Part shown: positions 6,022 through 21,897 of the stretch, in pieces
How positions within the stretch are numbered: position 1 is the first letter of the stretch
Layout of the letters: every line of letters begins with the position of its first letter
IMG/VR virus record: IMGVR_UViG_3300042317_001264
Coordinates: 1 to 21,999 of that record
From: a virus
Strand: one strand, 5' to 3'
DNA: 21,999 nt
Notes under the pieces: generated by a model
Told to the model about the DNA's origin: nothing
Databases searched by the model: none
Seen by the model: the letters and a program-made list of their open reading frames with translations, nothing else
Position numbers and translations under genes: made by a program

Positions 6022-8049
6022 TTATCTGTAAATTCCTTGATAAATATCGTCATCATTAACATTCGATGTGAACCATTCGGGACCTTTATATAGTTTATTA
6101 CTTTGTTGATTAACTAAATCTCTACTATCTCCACCAACAATATCATAATTTGGAGACTGTAAGGTTCTATTTAATTGTCTAGCTATCATATTAGCTATCA
6201 ATAATGAACTATATCGGTCTTTTCGTAATCTTCCTTTTTTACCATTTGGTAATTTTACTTCCGGAGTATCCCATCTGTCTCTTGCTTGTGGACCAGTGCT
6301 AGTTTGGGTCATAACTATAGTTGTTAATTCGTTTTTAAGTTCTTCTATTTCTAGTATGCATTCACTAACGCTATCATATAATGGATTTAAATCGTCGTCT
6401 AAGATATTTTTTCCTTCTTTTTCCATAGCAAGACCAAGTGTAAGATTATCAAAACGTGGAAATAGTAATATTTTATCTTCTAGATCTTTTCTTAATCCAT
6501 GATTAGCTTGACTTGTCCAATCTGCCTTTGCAAATTGTACTAGTTCCAGAATGTGTAAACCTTGTTGAGAATCAGTATCTTTTGCTTTGTCATAATCAAT
6601 AATTGGCCATATTAGTTGTTCATTATCTTGAAGCTTGCCAGGATCGTGCAAAGCTTCTTCTATTGCAACGCCACCCCCTTGAGCATCCATTCCTATTCTA
6701 ATAGGAGGAAAGGTTTTCATAAGATCTCTAATTTTTCTAGAACAAAAACTATAAAAGTCATATTCTTGTGCTAGTCCAACCTTTTGTCTTTCTTTAAAAT
6801 TATTTCTATTTGTTGCCCAACAATATACTATTCTAGAATGATCCGGATGAACTTCTAATATTACTATACTAAAATTATCTTGTTCACTAGCAGGATCGAT
6901 ACCGTAAACATAATGTAAATTAGGATTACCTTGAGTTATAGCATCAAAAACTACTGGTTTGTTACCAATTGTTATTGCCGGATAATCTTTTGTAACACAA
7001 CTTTCTATTAAACTTCTTCTAAAAAATCCCTGACTATCATTAACGAAACATGCAGCATATTCCATATTATATATACCAACATGAATAGTAGCTTTTGCTC
7101 TACTTACTTGTTTATCATCCATAAATCCTTTAGGTATTAATTCATAGGGTATACGAATAATACTATAATCTTTCCAATTAAAATTTGGTGGAATTTCTCC
7201 ATTAAAGATTTCTCGTAGTTTTCTTTCTTCGCCTTTACTTTCTATAATACTTTTATATCTTTTCCAGTACTGAGCAAAATGCTTGAAACCGTAGTCTGCT
7301 GTTCCACTTATCACTGCTTGATTATTAATTCTTCTAGAAATAGTATCTAATTCTTCGCTCCATACTCCTGCTAATTTCATAGCTGCTTTTTTAGCTTCTT
7401 CTTTAACGTTCTGAATTGGACTGGCACTAACAGCAGCGAAACCAGAAACTACCGTCTCATAAATATCTGGAGATATACTACTAAACTCATCTGCTAAAAT
7501 AATATGAGCGCGTAAACCTCTAATCTTATCTCCATTACCTAAAGGAATAGCTATGGCCCAACTATCTCCCAGTCTTATAGTACATCTATCAACATCTCGT
7601 CGTGGACCATCTTCGTTGCCATTGAATATGCTTCTTAAAATAGGACTATTTTTCCACATATTTTCCATATATTCAAAGATAATTTTACTTTGTCTAAAAG
7701 CAGCACCAACTATAACCACCTTGGTCCCTGGATAGAAAGCACACTTTAGTACCGCATACAGAGCTAACAGAAAGCTTTTACTAAAACCACGACTACCAAT
7801 AAGCATAGGGAAAGGACGATTCCACATTTCTTGTAGAACCATAGTCTGCATAGGATGTAATTCTATGTTAAAAATAAGTTTACAGGTTGATCCTATATAA
7901 TATGGATTTCTTAAAATTCTTAATAGATGCAAGTCTGGATTTTCTATATCTTCCTTTGTCCTATGAATCATAGGATTATTAGGAATACTAAGAGCACTTA
8001 TATCTCCTAGTCCAAGCCAAGCATTATCAAAACTTTTAAAATCAACCAT
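6022..8049 (-). CDS. terL: Terminase large subunit (packaging ATPase and nuclease)
   Basis: The 675-residue protein carries the two-domain TerL signature. The N-terminal ATPase has a Walker A-type loop LIGSRGFSKSF (about 83-93) and a Walker B strand AHIILADEFSS (about 181-191) with the acidic pair. The C-terminal RNase H-like nuclease has YGIDPASEQDN (Asp about 385), RIGMDAQGGG (Asp about 454) and a late acidic RKDRYSSLL segment (about 611-619). Terminases cut concatemeric DNA and pump it into the prohead through the portal, which is the next gene. The start overlaps the upstream gene by 8 nt, implying translational coupling. The Walker A loop is of the GxRGxSKS type seen in phage terminases rather than the textbook GxxxxGKT. 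Confidence 0.95.
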   Translation of the reverse strand: MVDFKSFDNAWLGLGDISALSIPNNPMIHRTKEDIENPDLHLLRILRNPYYIGSTCKLIFNIELHPMQTMVLQEMWNRPFPMLIGSRGFSKSFLLALYAVLKCAFYPGTKVVIVGAAFRQSKIIFEYMENMWKNSPILRSIFNGNEDGPRRDVDRCTIRLGDSWAIAIPLGNGDKIRGLRAHIILADEFSSISPDIYETVVSGFAAVSASPIQNVKEEAKKAAMKLAGVWSEELDTISRRINNQAVISGTADYGFKHFAQYWKRYKSIIESKGEERKLREIFNGEIPPNFNWKDYSIIRIPYELIPKGFMDDKQVSRAKATIHVGIYNMEYAACFVNDSQGFFRRSLIESCVTKDYPAITIGNKPVVFDAITQGNPNLHYVYGIDPASEQDNFSIVILEVHPDHSRIVYCWATNRNNFKERQKVGLAQEYDFYSFCSRKIRDLMKTFPPIRIGMDAQGGGVAIEEALHDPGKLQDNEQLIWPIIDYDKAKDTDSQQGLHILELVQFAKADWTSQANHGLRKDLEDKILLFPRFDNLTLGLAMEKEGKNILDDDLNPLYDSVSECILEIEELKNELTTIVMTQTSTGPQARDRWDTPEVKLPNGKKGRLRKDRYSSLLIANMIARQLNRTLQSPNYDIVGGDSRDLVNQQSNKLYKGPEWFTSNVNDDDIYQGIYR

Positions 8050-9089: not shown

Positions 9090-9357
9090 TTGATTTTTTA
9101 TTATCAGATATTAATTTGCTAAAAACTGCTTCGTATGCGTTTTCGTTTCCTTCTATAAGAGAGTGATGAAATTTACACAAAGTGATTCCGTTATTTATAT
9201 TATATCTCAAATCAACGCTATCAACCCATCTTTTGATATGGTGAACATGTAATTTTTTAGATGCTAAACATCCTGGCCATTGACATTTGTATTGATCTCG
9301 TTTTTTAACCTCTTGTCTAAAATTTTTGTATAATGGATCGTTATAATTTCTAAACAT
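9079..9357 (-). CDS. HNH endonuclease
   Basis: This 92-residue protein is a compact HNH nuclease. The core is CQWPGCLASKKLHVHHIKRW (about 24-43), giving the Cys pair and the His-His, then NGITLCKFHHSLIEGNE (about 57-73), giving the Asn, the second Cys and the final His. The fold binds one catalytic metal and, through the Cys residues, probably a structural zinc. HNH proteins encoded near the terminase are known in several phages (HK97 and relatives) to help packaging cleavage. The location three genes before TerL fits that, but a homing nuclease cannot be excluded. It overlaps Gmd by 8 nt and the ERCC4 gene by 11 nt. Confidence 0.85.
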   Translation of the reverse strand: MFRNYNDPLYKNFRQEVKKRDQYKCQWPGCLASKKLHVHHIKRWVDSVDLRYNINNGITLCKFHHSLIEGNENAYEAVFSKLISDNKKSNDK

Positions 9358-10342
9358 TAGCGTAAACTTTAATGTCGCTTTGTATCATTTCGCTAACTAA
9401 ATCATCAAAAGAAGTTGATGGAATCCATCCTAGTACTTTTTGAGCTTTAAGAGATCGGCCACATAAATAGTCAACTTCTGCTGGTCGATATAATGACGGA
9501 TCAATTTCCACATATTGTTTGTAGTCTAGATCCACACTCTCAAAAGATTTGATAACAAAATTTAATACGCTATGAGTTTGACCGGTACAAATAACAAAGT
9601 CGTCAGGAACATCTTGCTGTAGCATCAAATACATAGCATATACATAATCTTTAGCGTGACCCCAATCTCTGTAAGCTTGAAGATTACCAAGTTTTAAACT
9701 GTCTGATGTTTTCTTGTTAACTAATTGGCCAATATATTTGGTAACTTTTCGCGTTAGAAAATTTTCGCCACGTCGCGGACTTTCATGATTAAATAGTATG
9801 CCGCTAGTAGCAAAGATATTATAAGCATCACGATATATTCGTACCAAATTGTGACTAGCAACTTTGCTAACAGAATACGGACTTTGTGGAATTAGTGGAG
9901 TATTTTCATCTTGATATTTATTATTATCTTTATCCACACTATAATTTTTACCAAACATTTCGCTAGTGCTAGCTTGATAATATTTTGTAGCAGATGATGT
10001 GGTTCTTATGCCCTCTAAAATATGTAAAACTCCCATGGTATTAATATCAAACGTTGTGGAGGGCTGGTGAAAACTGGTTCCCACATGACTCATAGCGGCT
10101 AAGTTATAGAATTCGTCTGGTTCGTATTGTTTTAATATGGATAGTATTACTGAAGGATCTGTAAGATCAAATTCCAAAAGAGTTAAATTAGGATGATCTA
10201 CTATACTGGATATTCTTTCAAAATGATACGAACTACTACGTCTATATAATCCAATAACTTTGTAGTCTTTTTCTAATAATAGTTCGGCTAGATAGCTGCC
10301 ATCTTGACCAGTAATGCCTGTTATTATAGCTGTTTTATTCAT
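9350..10342 (-). CDS. gmd: GDP-mannose 4,6-dehydratase
   Basis: The 330-residue enzyme converts GDP-D-mannose to GDP-4-keto-6-deoxy-D-mannose with NADP+. It is an extended short-chain dehydrogenase: the Rossmann loop GITGQDG lies at 9-15, the STSEMFG active-site strand at about 125-131, and the catalytic YSVSK at 156-160. Further Gmd hallmarks are NLAAMSHVGTSF (about 80-91) and NHESPRRGENFLTRK (about 185-199). The length is a little under that of bacterial Gmd (about 340-370). It sits unexpectedly inside the head/packaging operon and overlaps both neighbours by 8 nt, so it is made with the structural proteins. Its pathway partner is encoded on the other strand at 12,317. Confidence 0.95.
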   Translation of the reverse strand: MNKTAIITGITGQDGSYLAELLLEKDYKVIGLYRRSSSYHFERISSIVDHPNLTLLEFDLTDPSVILSILKQYEPDEFYNLAAMSHVGTSFHQPSTTFDINTMGVLHILEGIRTTSSATKYYQASTSEMFGKNYSVDKDNNKYQDENTPLIPQSPYSVSKVASHNLVRIYRDAYNIFATSGILFNHESPRRGENFLTRKVTKYIGQLVNKKTSDSLKLGNLQAYRDWGHAKDYVYAMYLMLQQDVPDDFVICTGQTHSVLNFVIKSFESVDLDYKQYVEIDPSLYRPAEVDYLCGRSLKAQKVLGWIPSTSFDDLVSEMIQSDIKVYANV

Positions 10343-12316: not shown

Positions 12317-13234
12317 ATGAAAGTTTTAGTTACTGGTGGTAATGGATTTTTAGGGTCTAGAATTATGAAAGTTCTAAAAGATCAAGGTTATGATGCTTCA
12401 ACATTTAGATCAAGAAATTTTGATTTGTGCAATCCTAAGCAAACTAAGGATGCTTTTGATAGATATCGGCCAGATGCTGTGATACACTGTGCTGCTGTGG
12501 TTGGTGGAATAGGGGCAAATAGAGTTAATCCAGGATCATTTTTTTATCAAAACATGATGATGGGATTAAATGTTATTGAAAATTGTAGAGTTTTTGATGT
12601 GAGTAAAGTTGTGCAGATAGGAACGGTTTGTAGTTATCCTAAATATACTCCGGTTCCTTTTAGTGAGGATAGTTTGTGGGACGGCTATCCGGAAGAAACT
12701 AATGCTCCGTACGGAATAGCTAAAAAAGCTCTTTATGTTATGGTAGAAGCTTATAAAAATCAATATGATCTAAATGGTTGCGTATTGGTGCCTTGTAATT
12801 TATATGGGCCAAATGATAATTTTGATCCTGGTAGTAGTCATGTTATTCCGGCTTTGATTAAAAAGTTTATTGATGCAAAACAAAATAACAATACCGAGGT
12901 AGAATGTTGGGGAAGCGGAAGTGCCACACGAGAATTTTTATATGTGGATGATGCTGCTGAGGCTATAGTAAAAAGCTTGAGCGTGGATACTGATTCTAAG
13001 CCTATTAATCTGGGCGGTGGTGTTGAAATAACAATAAAAGATTTAGCAGAAAAAATAAAACTATTTGTTGGATACGATGGAAATATAGCTTGGAATAGCG
13101 ATCAGCCAGATGGTCAGCCACGAAGATTTCTTGATGTATCACGAGCCAAAAAGGTACTGAGCTGGGAACCAAAGGTAAGTTTTGATGCTGGATTAAAAGA
13201 GACTATAGAGTGGTACGGGGCTAATAAAAAATGA
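12317..13234 (+). CDS. fcl: GDP-L-fucose synthase
   Basis: This 305-residue enzyme (also called WcaG) epimerises and reduces the Gmd product to GDP-L-fucose with NADPH. The Rossmann loop GGNGFLG is at 7-13. Ser106 follows Cys105 in the strand IGTVCSYP, and the catalytic YGIAK is at 132-136. The PCNLYGPNDNFDPGSSHVIP block (about 159-178) carries the conserved His of the family. The C-terminus DQPDGQPRRFLDVSRAKKVL also matches. Length agrees with bacterial Fcl (about 310-320). A purine-rich AAGGAAAA site lies before the ATG. It couples to the next gene by an ATGA overlap. Its partner Gmd is on the opposite strand 2 kb away, an unusual separation since the pair is normally adjacent. Confidence 0.93.
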   Translation: MKVLVTGGNGFLGSRIMKVLKDQGYDASTFRSRNFDLCNPKQTKDAFDRYRPDAVIHCAAVVGGIGANRVNPGSFFYQNMMMGLNVIENCRVFDVSKVVQIGTVCSYPKYTPVPFSEDSLWDGYPEETNAPYGIAKKALYVMVEAYKNQYDLNGCVLVPCNLYGPNDNFDPGSSHVIPALIKKFIDAKQNNNTEVECWGSGSATREFLYVDDAAEAIVKSLSVDTDSKPINLGGGVEITIKDLAEKIKLFVGYDGNIAWNSDQPDGQPRRFLDVSRAKKVLSWEPKVSFDAGLKETIEWYGANKK

Positions 13235-13656
13235 ATATTAAACTTTTAGAAGCTACGGATAATATACAAGATTATATAGATTGCGTGAAGGATCTAAATA
13301 GTCATTATACTAATTTGAGTTCAATAGAAGATATTAAATATGTGCTAGAGCACAGACCGTCAAATATATTAACTTTTGTGATGGTGAACGATAGTGATAG
13401 GATAGTATCAACAGCAACGGTGATTATGGAAAAAAAATTAAGATATCAAAATTTATGTATGCATATAGAGGATGTTGGCACTCATCCACATTTTCGTAAT
13501 CTTGGATACGGTTCGGAACTAATTCGATACTGCGTAAAAATAGCAGAAGAGAACAAATGCTACAAAGTTAAATTGAATTGTGAAAAAGATTTAGTAAGCT
13601 TCTATGAGAAACTAGATTTTAAGGTTGGCGGAAACCACATGGGGCGATCATTATAG
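13231..13656 (+). CDS. GNAT acetyltransferase resembling glucosamine-6-phosphate N-acetyltransferase (GNA1)
   Basis: The 141-residue GNAT protein transfers acetyl from acetyl-CoA. Motif A is HIEDVGTHPHFRNLGYGSEL (about 77-96), with the pyrophosphate loop in R-N-L-G-Y-G. CYKVKLNCEKDLVSFYEKLD (about 110-129) follows, with the catalytic-type Tyr near the end. The order HIED...R.xGxG...CYK..L.C......FYEK..F....M is that of eukaryotic-type GNA1, which makes GlcNAc-6-phosphate. Bacteria normally use the unrelated GlmU for this. The coupling to fcl (ATGA) points to a nucleotide-sugar or glycan role. A different acyl acceptor is possible; the substrate is inferred from residue pattern only. Confidence 0.75.
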   Translation: MNIKLLEATDNIQDYIDCVKDLNSHYTNLSSIEDIKYVLEHRPSNILTFVMVNDSDRIVSTATVIMEKKLRYQNLCMHIEDVGTHPHFRNLGYGSELIRYCVKIAEENKCYKVKLNCEKDLVSFYEKLDFKVGGNHMGRSL

Positions 13657-14463: not shown

Positions 14464-14670
14464 ATGGATACTAACTACTTTCAATCATCGTTCGAGAGTA
14501 TGGAAACGAGTACCATACGATTGTGGCTCCACGAAGCACAAGTACGACTGCCCCATGAGAGGGGTAGCGTTCGTGAGATACTGAAAGAAGGTATACGCGC
14601 GTCTGCTCGTGAACTGTTGTTCAGGTATCGAGAGGATATGAAAAGAATCTTTTCAAAAAACTCGACGTAA
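14464..14670 (+). CDS. 68-aa 'METxT' protein, paralogue of the gene at 16,246
   Basis: The ATG follows the previous stop directly. The sequence has FESMETSTIRLWLHEAQVRL near the start and SARELLFRYREDMKR at the end, with a basic loop between. The protein at 16,246 shows the same frame: METVTLGKWMVNMQ near the start and AASELLRRYHEN at the end. This gives an all-helical, two-helix pair with conserved Trp, Glu-Leu-Leu and Arg-Tyr. They are paralogues that have diverged strongly. No known function. The stop codon lies inside the first hairpin repeat. Confidence 0.65.
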   Translation: MDTNYFQSSFESMETSTIRLWLHEAQVRLPHERGSVREILKEGIRASARELLFRYREDMKRIFSKNST

Positions 14671-14747
14671 ACCCTTGATACGTAAGGACTTACGGCGAAA
14701 TTGGGCCGCCATTTTTGACGTAACTCCTTATGGTTCAAGCACTTACG
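14666..14747 (+). repeat. Two-hairpin 3'-end repeat, copy 1
   Basis: Hairpin 1 pairs CGTAA..CCTT with AAGG..TTACG around a 7-base loop. A GC-rich middle (GGGCCGCC) and TTTTTGACG follow. Hairpin 2 pairs CGTAA with TTACG. The stop codon of the METxT gene is within the first arm. Confidence 0.8.
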
Positions 14748-14945: not shown

Positions 14946-15131
14946 ATGGATAAGACGATTTATTTGGTTTCCGATTGCTGCTATGTTGAAAGCAACCCAG
15001 ATTACCAAGTCTGCTCATGTTGTGGTGAGCATTGCGAAATGGTTGTGGATGATTCGATCCATACTGCTATGATGGATGATTTCATCGAGTCAGACTATAT
15101 CCCCGGTTATGATGATGGTGAGGCTATCTAG
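14946..15131 (+). CDS. Small zinc-ribbon protein, copy 1
   Basis: This 61-residue protein has an N-terminal metal-binding motif: YLVSDCCYVESNPDYQVCSC then CGEHCEMVVDD. Five Cys and one His lie in a CC...CxxCxxHC order, typical of small zinc ribbons that phages and bacteria encode. The C-terminus is acidic (ESDYIPGYDDGEAI). The gene at 15,944 has the same motif in the same order and is a clear paralogue. A purine-rich leader (GAAAGAGAGTGAAAG) precedes the ATG. A regulatory or host-interacting role is possible but not shown. Confidence 0.72.
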   Translation: MDKTIYLVSDCCYVESNPDYQVCSCCGEHCEMVVDDSIHTAMMDDFIESDYIPGYDDGEAI

Positions 15132-15674: not shown

Positions 15675-15680
15675 GGATTC

Positions 15681-15764
15681 GACATAAACCCTTGATACGT
15701 AAGGACTTAAGCAAAAATCGGGCCCGCAATTTTGACGTAAGTGCTTATGAGACAATGACTTACG
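15681..15764 (+). repeat. Two-hairpin 3'-end repeat, copy 2
   Basis: The first hairpin is TAAACCCTT/AAGGACTTA, the middle is GGGCCCGC, and the second hairpin begins GACGTAAGTGCTTA and ends TGACTTACG. It starts 6 nt after the stop of the 49-aa gene. A second small hairpin, ATGCCA/TGGCAT, lies just downstream (15,774-15,792). Confidence 0.8.
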
Positions 15765-15943: not shown

Positions 15944-16087
15944 ATGAATAAGATTGAAGTTTACTATTCCGATTGCTGTGGTGTTGAGATTGTTGGTGAT
16001 ATCGCTGGTCTCGAATTGTGTCCCCGATGCTGGGAACACTGCGACTGCGTTATTGAGGAAATCGACGATCCATCATGCCCCGCCTAA
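15944..16087 (+). CDS. Small zinc-ribbon protein, copy 2 (47 aa)
   Basis: This 47-residue protein (KIEVYYSDCCGVEIVGDIAG then LELCPRCWEHCDCVIEEIDD) shares the SDCCxVE, CxxC and EHC arrangement of the gene at 14,946 and ends soon after it. Seven Cys, five or more of them in that motif, give enough ligands for one zinc. It lacks the acidic tail of the first copy. The ATG lies in a pure AG leader (GAGAAAGAAAGAGAGAAAGA). The class-B promoter starts 6 nt after the stop codon. Confidence 0.75.
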   Translation: MNKIEVYYSDCCGVEIVGDIAGLELCPRCWEHCDCVIEEIDDPSCPA

Positions 16088-16639: not shown

Positions 16640-16650
16640 GGTTGTCTCGG

Positions 16651-16732
16651 CGTAAAGTCTTGAACCATAAGGACTTACGACGAGGCCGGGCGGCCCCCGG
16701 CGACGTAACTCCTTGTGGCTCAAGCACTTACG
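16651..16732 (+). repeat. Two-hairpin 3'-end repeat, copy 3
   Basis: Hairpin 1 pairs CGTAAAGTCTT with AAGGACTTACG with one bulge. The middle contains GCCGGG and CCCCGGC, which can pair with each other. Hairpin 2 pairs CGTAA with TTACG. This copy has the most GC-rich core. Confidence 0.8.
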
Positions 16733-16791: not shown

Positions 16792-16819
16792 TTGACAGTG
16801 CCGATGATTAGTGTAGAAT
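16792..16819 (+). promoter_or_regulatory. Sigma70-like promoter with CGAT spacer motif
   Basis: TTGACA, 16-bp spacer GTGCCGATGATTAGTG, TAGAAT. An A/T-rich stretch (AAAAAATAATCTTTTTTCTA) upstream may act as an UP element. Confidence 0.82.
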
Positions 16820-16846: not shown

Positions 16847-17038
16847 ATGTACGATTTCGAGGACATCAACGCGATTCTTGCTGATATGGCCGACGAGGGT
16901 ATTCTGGAACCGATGGTCGAGCCGATTGATGAGAACGACTGCCATCCGCTCGACTGGGCCGAAGTGGTCGGTTGTGCGGACGATATTTTTGACGAAGTGT
17001 ATCTTGACGAAGTGGGCGATCCGTGGTATCTTGTTTGA
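16847..17038 (+). CDS. 63-aa acidic protein without Lys or Arg
   Basis: The product begins MYDFEDINAILADMADEGIL and continues EPMVEPIDENDCHPLDWAEV. I count 12 Asp and 8 Glu among 63 residues and no Lys or Arg. Two Cys and several Trp are present. Proteins with this charge pattern and small size include DNA mimics that block host DNA-binding proteins, but no family motif is visible. A short AAGGG site precedes the ATG by 9 nt. It is followed after 13 nt by an even more acidic gene. Confidence 0.65.
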   Translation: MYDFEDINAILADMADEGILEPMVEPIDENDCHPLDWAEVVGCADDIFDEVYLDEVGDPWYLV

Positions 17039-17051
17039 AAAGGAGAAAATG

Positions 17052-17324
17052 ATGAGTCACCCTGATCCCTTGTTCGATCCCGATAACTCTGAGGATGATG
17101 ATATGAATTATGATGATCACGACGATTTCTATCAAGAGGTCGAAGATTACAACGATTATTATATCGAAGAAAATAGCGTGGACGATGATGACGACTACGA
17201 TGATAGCATGGACGGCGACCATGATAGTGCCATGACTTCAGCCGGTTGGGGAACCGATGAGGATTATGGATCGTATCACGATGATATTGACGCTTATCAC
17301 GATTACTATGGGGAGGATTTCTGA
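17052..17324 (+). CDS. 90-aa extremely acidic Asp/Tyr-rich protein
   Basis: I use the second of two adjacent ATGs (17052), which stands 6 nt from AGGAG; the first (17049) would leave only 3 nt. I count 29 Asp and 7 Glu, that is about 40 percent acidic residues, with no Lys or Arg and about a dozen Tyr. Stretches such as EENSVDDDDDYDDSMDGDHD dominate. It may be a DNA mimic (as phage Ocr and similar antirestriction proteins are), a metal-binding low-complexity protein, or a flexible linker. The amino-acid bias produces a long open frame on the other strand, which should not be taken as a gene. The next gene starts 2 nt after the stop. Confidence 0.7.
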   Translation: MSHPDPLFDPDNSEDDDMNYDDHDDFYQEVEDYNDYYIEENSVDDDDDYDDSMDGDHDSAMTSAGWGTDEDYGSYHDDIDAYHDYYGEDF

Positions 17325-17326
17325 AC

Positions 17327-17533
17327 ATGATCGATTACATTTGCGACAGCATCACGGTTGATAATGATTCGGAAGATGGAATGTTTCTTGGAAACAAGAT
17401 GGTTGTGATTTCTGTTCCAGAGTGCGCTAGTGCTGATCCTTTGGACAGGTACGATCACCTTGCGGCAATATCCGGGGCGTTGGAAAATGCTCTGGACTGC
17501 GATGTACGCTCGTTCAGTTACAACAAACTTTGA
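17327..17533 (+). CDS. 68-aa protein of unknown function
   Basis: The sequence begins MIDYICDSITVDNDSEDGMF and ends SGALENALDCDVRSFSYNKL. A β-like first half with a central VVISVPEC strand and a helical second half suggest a small αβ fold. It is acidic, but unlike its two neighbours it contains several Lys and Arg. It starts 2 nt after the previous stop. Its TGA lies in the first arm of hairpin repeat 4. Confidence 0.6.
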   Translation: MIDYICDSITVDNDSEDGMFLGNKMVVISVPECASADPLDRYDHLAAISGALENALDCDVRSFSYNKL

Positions 17534-17613
17534 CGCAAACCCTTGCCGCGTAAGGACTTGCGTCGCGGCGGGCGGGCCGATTTTGACGTAAGTGCTTACT
17601 GCACAAGCACTTA
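17532..17613 (+). repeat. Two-hairpin 3'-end repeat, copy 4
   Basis: Hairpin 1 pairs GACGCAA with TTGCGTC, so the T-A pair of copy 1 has become C-G on both sides. Hairpin 2 pairs TAAGTGCTT with AAGCACTTA perfectly. The loop GCCGCG could pair with the downstream CGCGGC. Confidence 0.85.
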
Positions 17614-17632
17614 GAAAACATTACAGTTTTTC

Positions 17633-18617: not shown

Positions 18618-18696
18618 ATCCTTGTGCTGTAAGGACTTAGATCAAAACGGCGAGGCCCGGCTCGACGTAAGTGCTTGATTCTCAACAACTTGCATC
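18612..18696 (+). repeat. Two-hairpin 3'-end repeat, copy 5
   Basis: Hairpin 1 pairs TCCTT with AAGGA and TAA with TTA. The middle CGAG-GCCCGG-CTCG is a small hairpin itself. Hairpin 2 pairs GACGTAAGT with ACTTGCATC with one mismatch, and C/A-type changes are mostly balanced. Confidence 0.78.
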
Positions 18697-19733: not shown

Positions 19734-19749
19734 ATATCGCCCCATCGCT

Positions 19750-19829
19750 CTAAGTTCTTGCTACCAAAGGACTTAGGGCGAGATGGGCGGGCCGGCCGCG
19801 ACGTAAGTGCTTACTTATCAACCACTTAG
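19750..19829 (+). repeat. Two-hairpin 3'-end repeat, copy 6
   Basis: Hairpin 1 pairs CTAAGTTCTT with AAGGACTTAG over ten positions with one wobble. An outer stem of CCCATC with GATGGG may extend it. The middle is GGGCGGGCCGGCC. Hairpin 2 pairs TAAGTG with CACTTA. Confidence 0.83.
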
Positions 19830-21282: not shown

Positions 21283-21453
21283 ATGAATAAAGAACAAGAA
21301 CAAGCAATTAAAATGACCATCAACTTTCTAAGAAATAGATTATTGGGGGTCAATAAACATTATTACGATGCGGTCTTGACATCAGTAAAGATGCATGATA
21401 TAACTCTTGAAGACGTATTAGAATATTGGAGAAAGGAAGCAGGAAACGTATGA
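21283..21453 (+). CDS. 56-aa helical protein of unknown function
   Basis: The product (MNKEQEQAIKMTINFLRNRL then GVNKHYYDAVLTSVKMHDIT and LEDVLEYWRKEAGNV) is almost fully helical and charged. It is AT-rich, unlike the gene after it. The start lies 3 nt after the preceding TAA, with a weak AAAGGATTAT region upstream. Its TGA overlaps the next ATG (ATGA). I recognise no family. Confidence 0.62.
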   Translation: MNKEQEQAIKMTINFLRNRLLGVNKHYYDAVLTSVKMHDITLEDVLEYWRKEAGNV

Positions 21454-21821
21454 TCAAGATTGATTTGACGGTTCGTGAAGCGGTGGATTTGGCGATCTAC
21501 TGCCCAGCAGAAATGCGCGAAAAGATCGTGGCCGCACTGGAAAGTGCTTTAGGGTCAAAAGAGCAGTATCATGTTACCGTCACCGGCGGCATGACCACAA
21601 ACAATCGTATTCCTTGTATCAAGGCTGTGCGTCAGCACACCGGGTGGGGATTGAAAGAAGCGAAGGATTGGACCGATGGTATGATCGGCCGCTGGGACGC
21701 TTATGGCGTGTGGCACAAGGGCGACCTGAACCAGATATCGGTGCGTCTGAAAACCACAGAGGCGGCTGAAAATCTGCTTCGTGACCTGAAGAACGCTGGT
21801 TGCGAAGGGTACTTGTCGTAA
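21450..21821 (+). CDS. Protein with a ribosomal L7/L12 C-terminal-like domain
   Basis: I start at the ATG at 21450, coupled by ATGA to the previous gene, with AGGA upstream. The 123-residue product has an N-terminal helical half (TVREAVDLAIYCPAEMREKI then VAALESAL) unlike the L7/L12 dimerisation domain. The C-terminal part from about 53 reads NRIPCIKAVRQHTGWGLKEA then KDWTDG, and ends LKTTEAAENLLRDLKNAGCE. This is the bacterial L7/L12 order: v-IKaVR..TGlGLKEAKdlvd...A..l...L..AGa. L12 uses this domain to bind translation GTPases. The phage protein might bind them or serve only as a protein-interaction module. The domain call is based on residue pattern. Confidence 0.72.
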   Translation: MIKIDLTVREAVDLAIYCPAEMREKIVAALESALGSKEQYHVTVTGGMTTNNRIPCIKAVRQHTGWGLKEAKDWTDGMIGRWDAYGVWHKGDLNQISVRLKTTEAAENLLRDLKNAGCEGYLS

Positions 21822-21897
21822 ACCCTTATGCCGCAAGATTTTACGCTGCGGCGGGCGGGCCGATTTCGTCATAAGTGCTTATCCCATAAGGACTTAG
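21817..21897 (+). repeat. Two-hairpin 3'-end repeat, copy 7
   Basis: Hairpin 1 pairs CGTAAA with TTTACG; the loop GCCGCA can also pair with the downstream TGCGGC. The middle is GGCGGGCGGGCC. Hairpin 2 pairs TAAGT..CTTA with TAAG..ACTTA. The stop codon of the L12-like gene lies in the first arm. Confidence 0.8.

Follow-up and report, generated by a model that had tools for sequence, protein, structure and literature searches.

A short peptide module near the C-terminus of otherwise unrelated acidic phage proteins

Two adjacent acidic proteins, P1 and P2, are encoded in the window (the whole stretch of DNA analysed here, an entire IMG/VR entry of 21,999 bases and a tailed-phage fragment), and P2 has towards its C-terminus a module of about 25 residues that is found again in over 200 distinct proteins of unrelated phages. 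As judged by sequence comparison, this tail is shown to be modular and to be conserved as a peptide on proteins that are otherwise unrelated. It is tentatively proposed to act at an early stage of infection as a short docking peptide for one conserved target, probably of the host; P1 would be the partner specific to this clade. Features of the window are listed in Table 1.

Table 1. Coordinates of features in the window
Feature	Position	Strand	Remarks
Protein resembling major head protein of Bacillus phage G	631-1638	minus	
Terminase large subunit	6025-8049	minus	
Nucleotide-sugar genes and GNAT-like protein	9350-10342; 12317-13234; 13231-13656	minus; plus; plus	
Intergenic repeats, about 85 nt	14662-14746; 15679-15763; 16647-16731; 17530-17614; 18631-18691; 19745-19829; 21813-21897		AAGGACTTACG / CGTAAGTGCTT units
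Small Cys-rich paralogues (two)	14946-15131; 15944-16087	plus	SDCCxVE...CxxCxEHC type, acidic, possibly zinc-binding
Open frame antisense to P1-P2, 202 aa	16720-17328	minus	rejected as a gene
Sigma-70-like promoter TTGACA-16-TAGAAT	16792-16819	plus	11/12; upstream of P1, drives P1-P2 operon
P1	16847-17038	plus	acidic, 63 aa; confined to the phage clade of the window
P2 Shine-Dalgarno AGGAG	17041-17045	plus	6 nt 5' of ATG 17052; read from sequence
P2	17052-17324	plus	acidic, 90 aa; N-segment, acidic middle and C-terminal tail
P2 N-segment MSHPDPLFDPDNSEDDDM	17052-17105	plus	clade-specific; M1, S2, H3, P4, and D9 invariant in alignment
P2 acidic middle	17106-17195	plus	variable; acidity kept, length and sequence not
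Shared tail module YDDSMDGDHDSAMTSAGWGTDEDYG	17196-17270	plus	on unrelated carriers across many phages
P3	17327-17533	plus	68 aa, third gene of the operon; kept by close relatives, 11 distinct homologues
Strongly basic protein, 56 aa	17668-17838	plus	14 Lys/Arg, 3 acidic residues; own promoter-like site
131-aa protein	21426-21821	plus	match to ribosomal L7/L12 C-terminal domain, 32.9 bits (Pfam cut-off 25.9)

The tail module and its carriers

P2 is built of three parts, a clade-specific start (most homologues begin MSHPDPLFDPDNSYEDDM), an acidic middle that differs in length between homologues, and the strongly conserved end YDDSMDGDHDSAMTSAGWGTDEDYG. The tail consensus, MDGD(x)xSA[LM]xS[AC]G-x-G-T-D-E-D-Y-G, covers about 25 near-invariant residues in surroundings that are acidic and almost free of Lys and Arg, and because P2 bears it the first-pass annotation, which had seen no family motif in either protein, was wrong for P2. 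The search for P2 relatives had already given proteins with only the tail in common (L090, L098-L100). A DNA pattern for GWGTDEDYG was then matched by 120 or more stretches of IMG/VR, where the protein concerned was mostly unrelated to P2; the F/Y form of the pattern gave at least 120 further stretches. The distinct tail proteins from two IMG/VR scans number at least 136 and at least 102, most having unrelated N-terminal parts, and the GC content of their loci ranges from about 0.30 to 0.66.

Conservation extends to residues outside the search pattern (S at -2 in 98 of 104, [LM] at -4 in 100 of 103). When the upstream half only (MDGDxDSAM..) was used for scanning, 129 of 130 distinct proteins ran on into GxGxDExY, with a variable residue after the first G (W, F, Y, M, H, L, Q); since the upstream half alone predicts the remainder, the tail is not an artefact of the search pattern. 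Every synonymous codon occurs at each degenerate position of the core, and this free variation places selection at the peptide level. A DNA-level element, e.g., a recombination site or promoter, was rejected on the same grounds, and so was a low-complexity or compositional artefact, given a core near-invariant despite codon variation and the co-occurrence of both halves.

Carriers are mostly 60-100 aa in size and lie outside head operons. They include small HTH-like proteins, a WDFYKDVHGxRPRHW family, Cys-rich proteins, and a few large (virion) proteins. The motif is found near the carrier C-end, usually 10-40 residues away as counted from its first G, and rarely at internal positions (L160, L267, L272, and L323 among others). 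The C-ends differ (GEDF, GDE, YDD, ERL, and others), as does their distance from the motif. With carrier start codons set by rule, the mean charge per residue is -0.19 in the carrier part and -0.32 in the tail, and just 1 of 148 carriers is near neutral.

Many loci with unrelated carriers have no gene other than the tail in common with loci of the window clade. Outside that clade the search for a universal neighbour gene gave none, the neighbours being lineage-dependent. Nine diverse motif phages, with large genomes and from different lineages, have by blastp no gene family common to all nine, the best being a helicase-like family in seven of them. At this level no common phage-encoded partner is evident, though one too diverged for blastp may exist.

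A single tail locus was found in 55 of the 58 phage records scanned whole, which mix fragments and near-complete genomes; the two copies of Xanthomonas citri phage XacN1 correspond to its terminal repeats. The exceptions are two records with two copies (L137, L261) and one with a form outside the pattern. In L261 (945-1965, minus strand), two identical carrier C-ends lie 989 nt apart, as a tandem duplication or an assembly repeat. When a tail profile was applied to all six frames of nine genomes (73-165 kb), each yielded a single copy, with no second one even at a weaker score. A tag by which one phage would mark many client proteins was rejected, the tail being usually single-copy per genome.

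A scan of 84,980 genomes of bacteria and archaea gave no hit to the strict tail pattern and eight to the wider one. Every one of the eight is on a MAG contig (3-33 kb in size), where it lies close to the C-end of an acidic, phage-type carrier. Most simply, these are phage contigs binned with the MAG. The tail is thereby shown, across the genomes scanned, to be essentially absent from cellular genomes and nearly exclusive to viruses. Mimicry of a host protein was rejected, since GxGTDEDYG occurs in no cellular protein of these genomes apart from the eight contigs. Among 50,697 phage records, the tail was found only in XacN1 and the metagenomic huge phage LR745208, in a search that is limited by low-complexity masking, so that more may exist; tblastn against cultured phages was run with a less masked query, as such masking weakens or breaks matches. 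Carrier domains gave no match in cultured phages at E<0.01 (two carriers tried). The motif is absent from Pfam and NCBIfam, is represented in PHROGs only by the family of XacN1 itself, and its string was not found in the PMC papers searched. The motif family fits no described kind found here, and its biochemical activity may yet be of a known kind. Its shortness, its acidity, its masking as low complexity, and its near absence from cultured phages have kept it out of family libraries; a gap is thus exposed through which a motif of hundreds of environmental phages goes unseen.

The acidic operon of the window

The charge composition that had drawn attention to P1 and P2 was confirmed on recounting: P1 has 20 acidic residues (12 Asp, 8 Glu), no Lys or Arg and 1 His, and P2 has 36 (29 Asp, 7 Glu), no Lys or Arg and 5 His. 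Their 13-nt spacing and common promoter, also claimed at first pass, were borne out, the latter as a single sigma-70-like site 5' of P1. An alternative start of P2, at an ATG one codon upstream, would give 91 aa. Given a combined Lys and Arg frequency of 0.132 in the longer genes of the window, zero basic residues would occur with p ~1e-4 in 63 residues and ~3e-6 in 90, so the lack of Lys and Arg is not due to chance. Lys/Arg-free sequences make up 37 of 64 P1 homologues and 26 of 58 P2 homologues, and at most one Lys/Arg is present in 59 and 48 of these, respectively. Mean net charge is -16 for P1 and -32 for P2 homologues, with Lys+Arg at about 0.9% in each, and acidic character is conserved in both families (about 60 homologues each). 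Relatives of P1 and P2 are numerous in IMG/VR, as adjacent genes on phage contigs of up to 238 kb, and judged by these relatives neither protein is an orphan.

The P1 family has the consensus DFDxINxILxxMAxxGxxEPMVEPIDDPxxxxxFxDWAEVVGxVDExxPE, with L11, E25, P26, I27, D28, A38, and G42 invariant, and no relative of P1 was found in Pfam, PHROG, NCBIfam, or PDB. P1 lies nearly always 5' of P2. The gene following it (n=65) is a tail gene in 62 cases, at a median distance of 62 nt on the same strand, and a P2 with a diverged tail in two (L010 and L060, degraded to GWGLDESYD); in one case the contig ends. The P1 promoter is kept at 10/12 or better in 50 of 65 homologues vs. 5 of 65 shuffled.

Further head genes were assigned by position to the minus strand of the window, and beyond roughly 12 kb many small genes are encoded on the plus strand. 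The nucleotide-sugar and GNAT-like genes are situated around the junction of these two regions; the nucleotide-sugar genes resemble GDP-mannose 4,6-dehydratase and GDP-fucose synthase, all these assignments, the GNAT-like one included, being made by eye. Most of the intergenic repeats fold as hairpins (-17 to -47 kcal/mol). They have no Rfam match at gathering thresholds and separate small plus-strand transcription units, one flanking the P1-P2-P3 operon on each side; they are perhaps operon punctuation or a regulatory site. The strongly basic protein encoded directly after the operon shares a conserved HDNRPKRxRTR...NRxA motif with 28 distinct homologues from the clade, and is a possible partner for the acidic proteins. 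The antisense frame is rich in His, Arg, and Tyr because the opposite strand has acidic codons, of which it is a product.

Possible function of the tail

The first-pass annotation had likened the charge of P1 and P2 to that of phage DNA mimics. The acidity itself is real, conserved, and present in nearly all carriers, but a folded mimic is not indicated for P2. As monomers in AlphaFold2, P2 (59 homologues) was predicted to be disordered, with pLDDT 58, pTM 0.13, and no secondary structure, and P1 (65 homologues) to have three short helices (4-16, 34-41, 44-49; pLDDT 77, pTM 0.36), the P1 model giving no Foldseek match in BFVD or PDB at E below 0.001. Predicted disorder with no conserved fold in homologues had been named as speaking against mimicry, and half of this was found, in the disorder of P2. 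Neither P1 nor P2 has a notable match to known mimics by sequence (Pfam, PHROG, NCBIfam, PDB sequences), nor does the P1 model by Foldseek, and neither protein matches an anti-CRISPR family in Pfam, PHROG, or NCBIfam. Because AlphaFold predicts disorder, P2 is unlikely to be a rigid DNA mimic of the Ocr type.

Charge does matter, being conserved in both families and common to almost all carriers, and it lends some weight to the idea that P1 and P2 are electrostatic DNA or RNA decoys which fill the nucleic-acid site of a restriction enzyme, a nucleoid protein, or a CRISPR complex. Even a disordered acidic stretch could act as an electrostatic mimic. With 36 acidic and no basic residues in 90 aa, P2 is comparable to Ocr with 34 and 6 in 116 (PMC4872106). 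In L272 (6665-8850, plus strand), the start of the carrier gene coincides or overlaps with the end of a gene matching the PHROG 'anti-restriction protein' (phrog_7245), and a functional link between the two is possible. However, decoys of this kind are unlikely in view of the disorder of P2, the lack of a confident compact fold in P1, and the near-invariance of uncharged tail residues (S, G, G, T, Y), which speaks more for recognition of a specific sequence than for bulk charge.

The docking proposal takes P2 as the carrier of a short, probably disordered peptide. A single, highly conserved protein, most likely of bacterial and not of phage origin, would be the target onto which the tail folds, and would be blocked or redirected by it early in infection. 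The rest of P2 would be an interchangeable acidic carrier serving expression, solubility, and electrostatic steering to a basic surface of the target, perhaps its nucleic-acid-binding site; P1 would probably bind P2 or a second site of the same target. In some lineages the peptide lies inside large virion-type proteins and may enter with the DNA. A host target is favoured because the tail spans unrelated phages without a common phage gene, and early action because of the sigma-70-like promoter, the location of the XacN1 gene in a terminal repeat, and possible virion packaging in some lineages. The common acidity of the carriers suggests steering towards a basic surface, which makes a nucleic-acid-binding protein a reasonable guess for the target.

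Tails in large proteins of the head/packaging region, beside terminase or virion proteins (L160, L267, L323), would also suit an acidic peptide packaged inside the head for assembly, DNA condensation, or delivery. The L160 and L323 carriers match virion-structural PHROGs, and the segments after the tail in several carriers resemble, by eye, targeting sequences of phage heads (e.g., FKEHL). Such a role is rather improbable for the tail in general: in the window clade the gene has a sigma-70-like promoter of its own and is surrounded by small genes, on the strand opposite to the head genes and 8-16 kb away from them; carriers are mostly small and outside head operons; and XacN1 ORF038 is not named among virion proteins in the main text of the phage's description. 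It is quite unlikely that the tail binds a replication or transcription partner encoded by the phage, in the manner of acidic tails of phage ssDNA-binding proteins, and so coordinates replication. Replication genes are indeed neighbours in some lineages, i.e., an AAA-type ATPase (by sequence look) immediately downstream in 18 loci, ssb near three carriers (L160, L267, L323), and an RNR-like gene upstream in seven loci, but none of these neighbours is universal, and the nine motif phages have no common gene family at the blastp level.

If the docking proposal is extended, the tail may be a phage-only peptide, moved among unrelated carriers at about one copy per genome, that targets a near-universal bacterial protein and acts as a takeover device in phages of many phyla, missed since almost no cultured phage has it; this wider reading is held with greater reserve than the docking role itself. 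Were the tail to bind a conserved bacterial protein, it would mark a weak spot exploited by unrelated phages via the same approximately 25 residues, and would be a ready peptide probe for finding the target.

Comparison with known systems

In SSB-type proteins, an acidic disordered C-terminal tip with the last residues D-[ILV]-P-F docks on partners. The P2 tail is likewise acidic, C-terminal, and predicted to be disordered, and docking through it is proposed here, but it lacks the D-[ILV]-P-F end and is followed by a variable number of residues after GxGTDEDYG. Heads of T4-like phages contain acidic internal peptides, which some tail carriers resemble in being virion-type proteins; P2, unlike these, stands alone outside the head genes, and head proteins bear the tail only in rare carriers (L160, L323).

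T7 Ocr and other DNA mimics are, like P2, small, strongly acidic phage proteins, possibly early and anti-host, and the large excess of acidic over basic residues typical of Ocr and ArdA is present in P1 and P2. Ocr is a folded homodimer with the shape of bent DNA (PMC2806950, PMC4872106), whereas P2 is predicted to be disordered, is conserved as a linear motif, and has no homology to it.

The closest comparisons are two proteins that have the tail itself. The uncultured huge phage LR745208.1 (485 kb) has an unannotated ORF (approximately 1.6-1.95 kb) for an acidic protein that ends FNDSMDGDHASALASAGWGTDEDYGTFNAFGEE, without the MSHPDP N-segment of P2. In the 385-kb jumbo phage XacN1, ORF038 (BBA65186.1, phrog_36991) differs from P2 in its unrelated N-terminal part, and the host, genome, and size are unrelated. 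P2 has no match to phrog_36991; other carriers match this family mainly over the tail, and it is the only PHROG matched well. Like P2, ORF038 has the tail at the C-end (...DDGYALASAGFGTDEDYGMYDSGDY) in an acidic setting, and it is located in the 66-kb terminal repeat, for which a role in host takeover was proposed in the description of the phage (PMC5852040).
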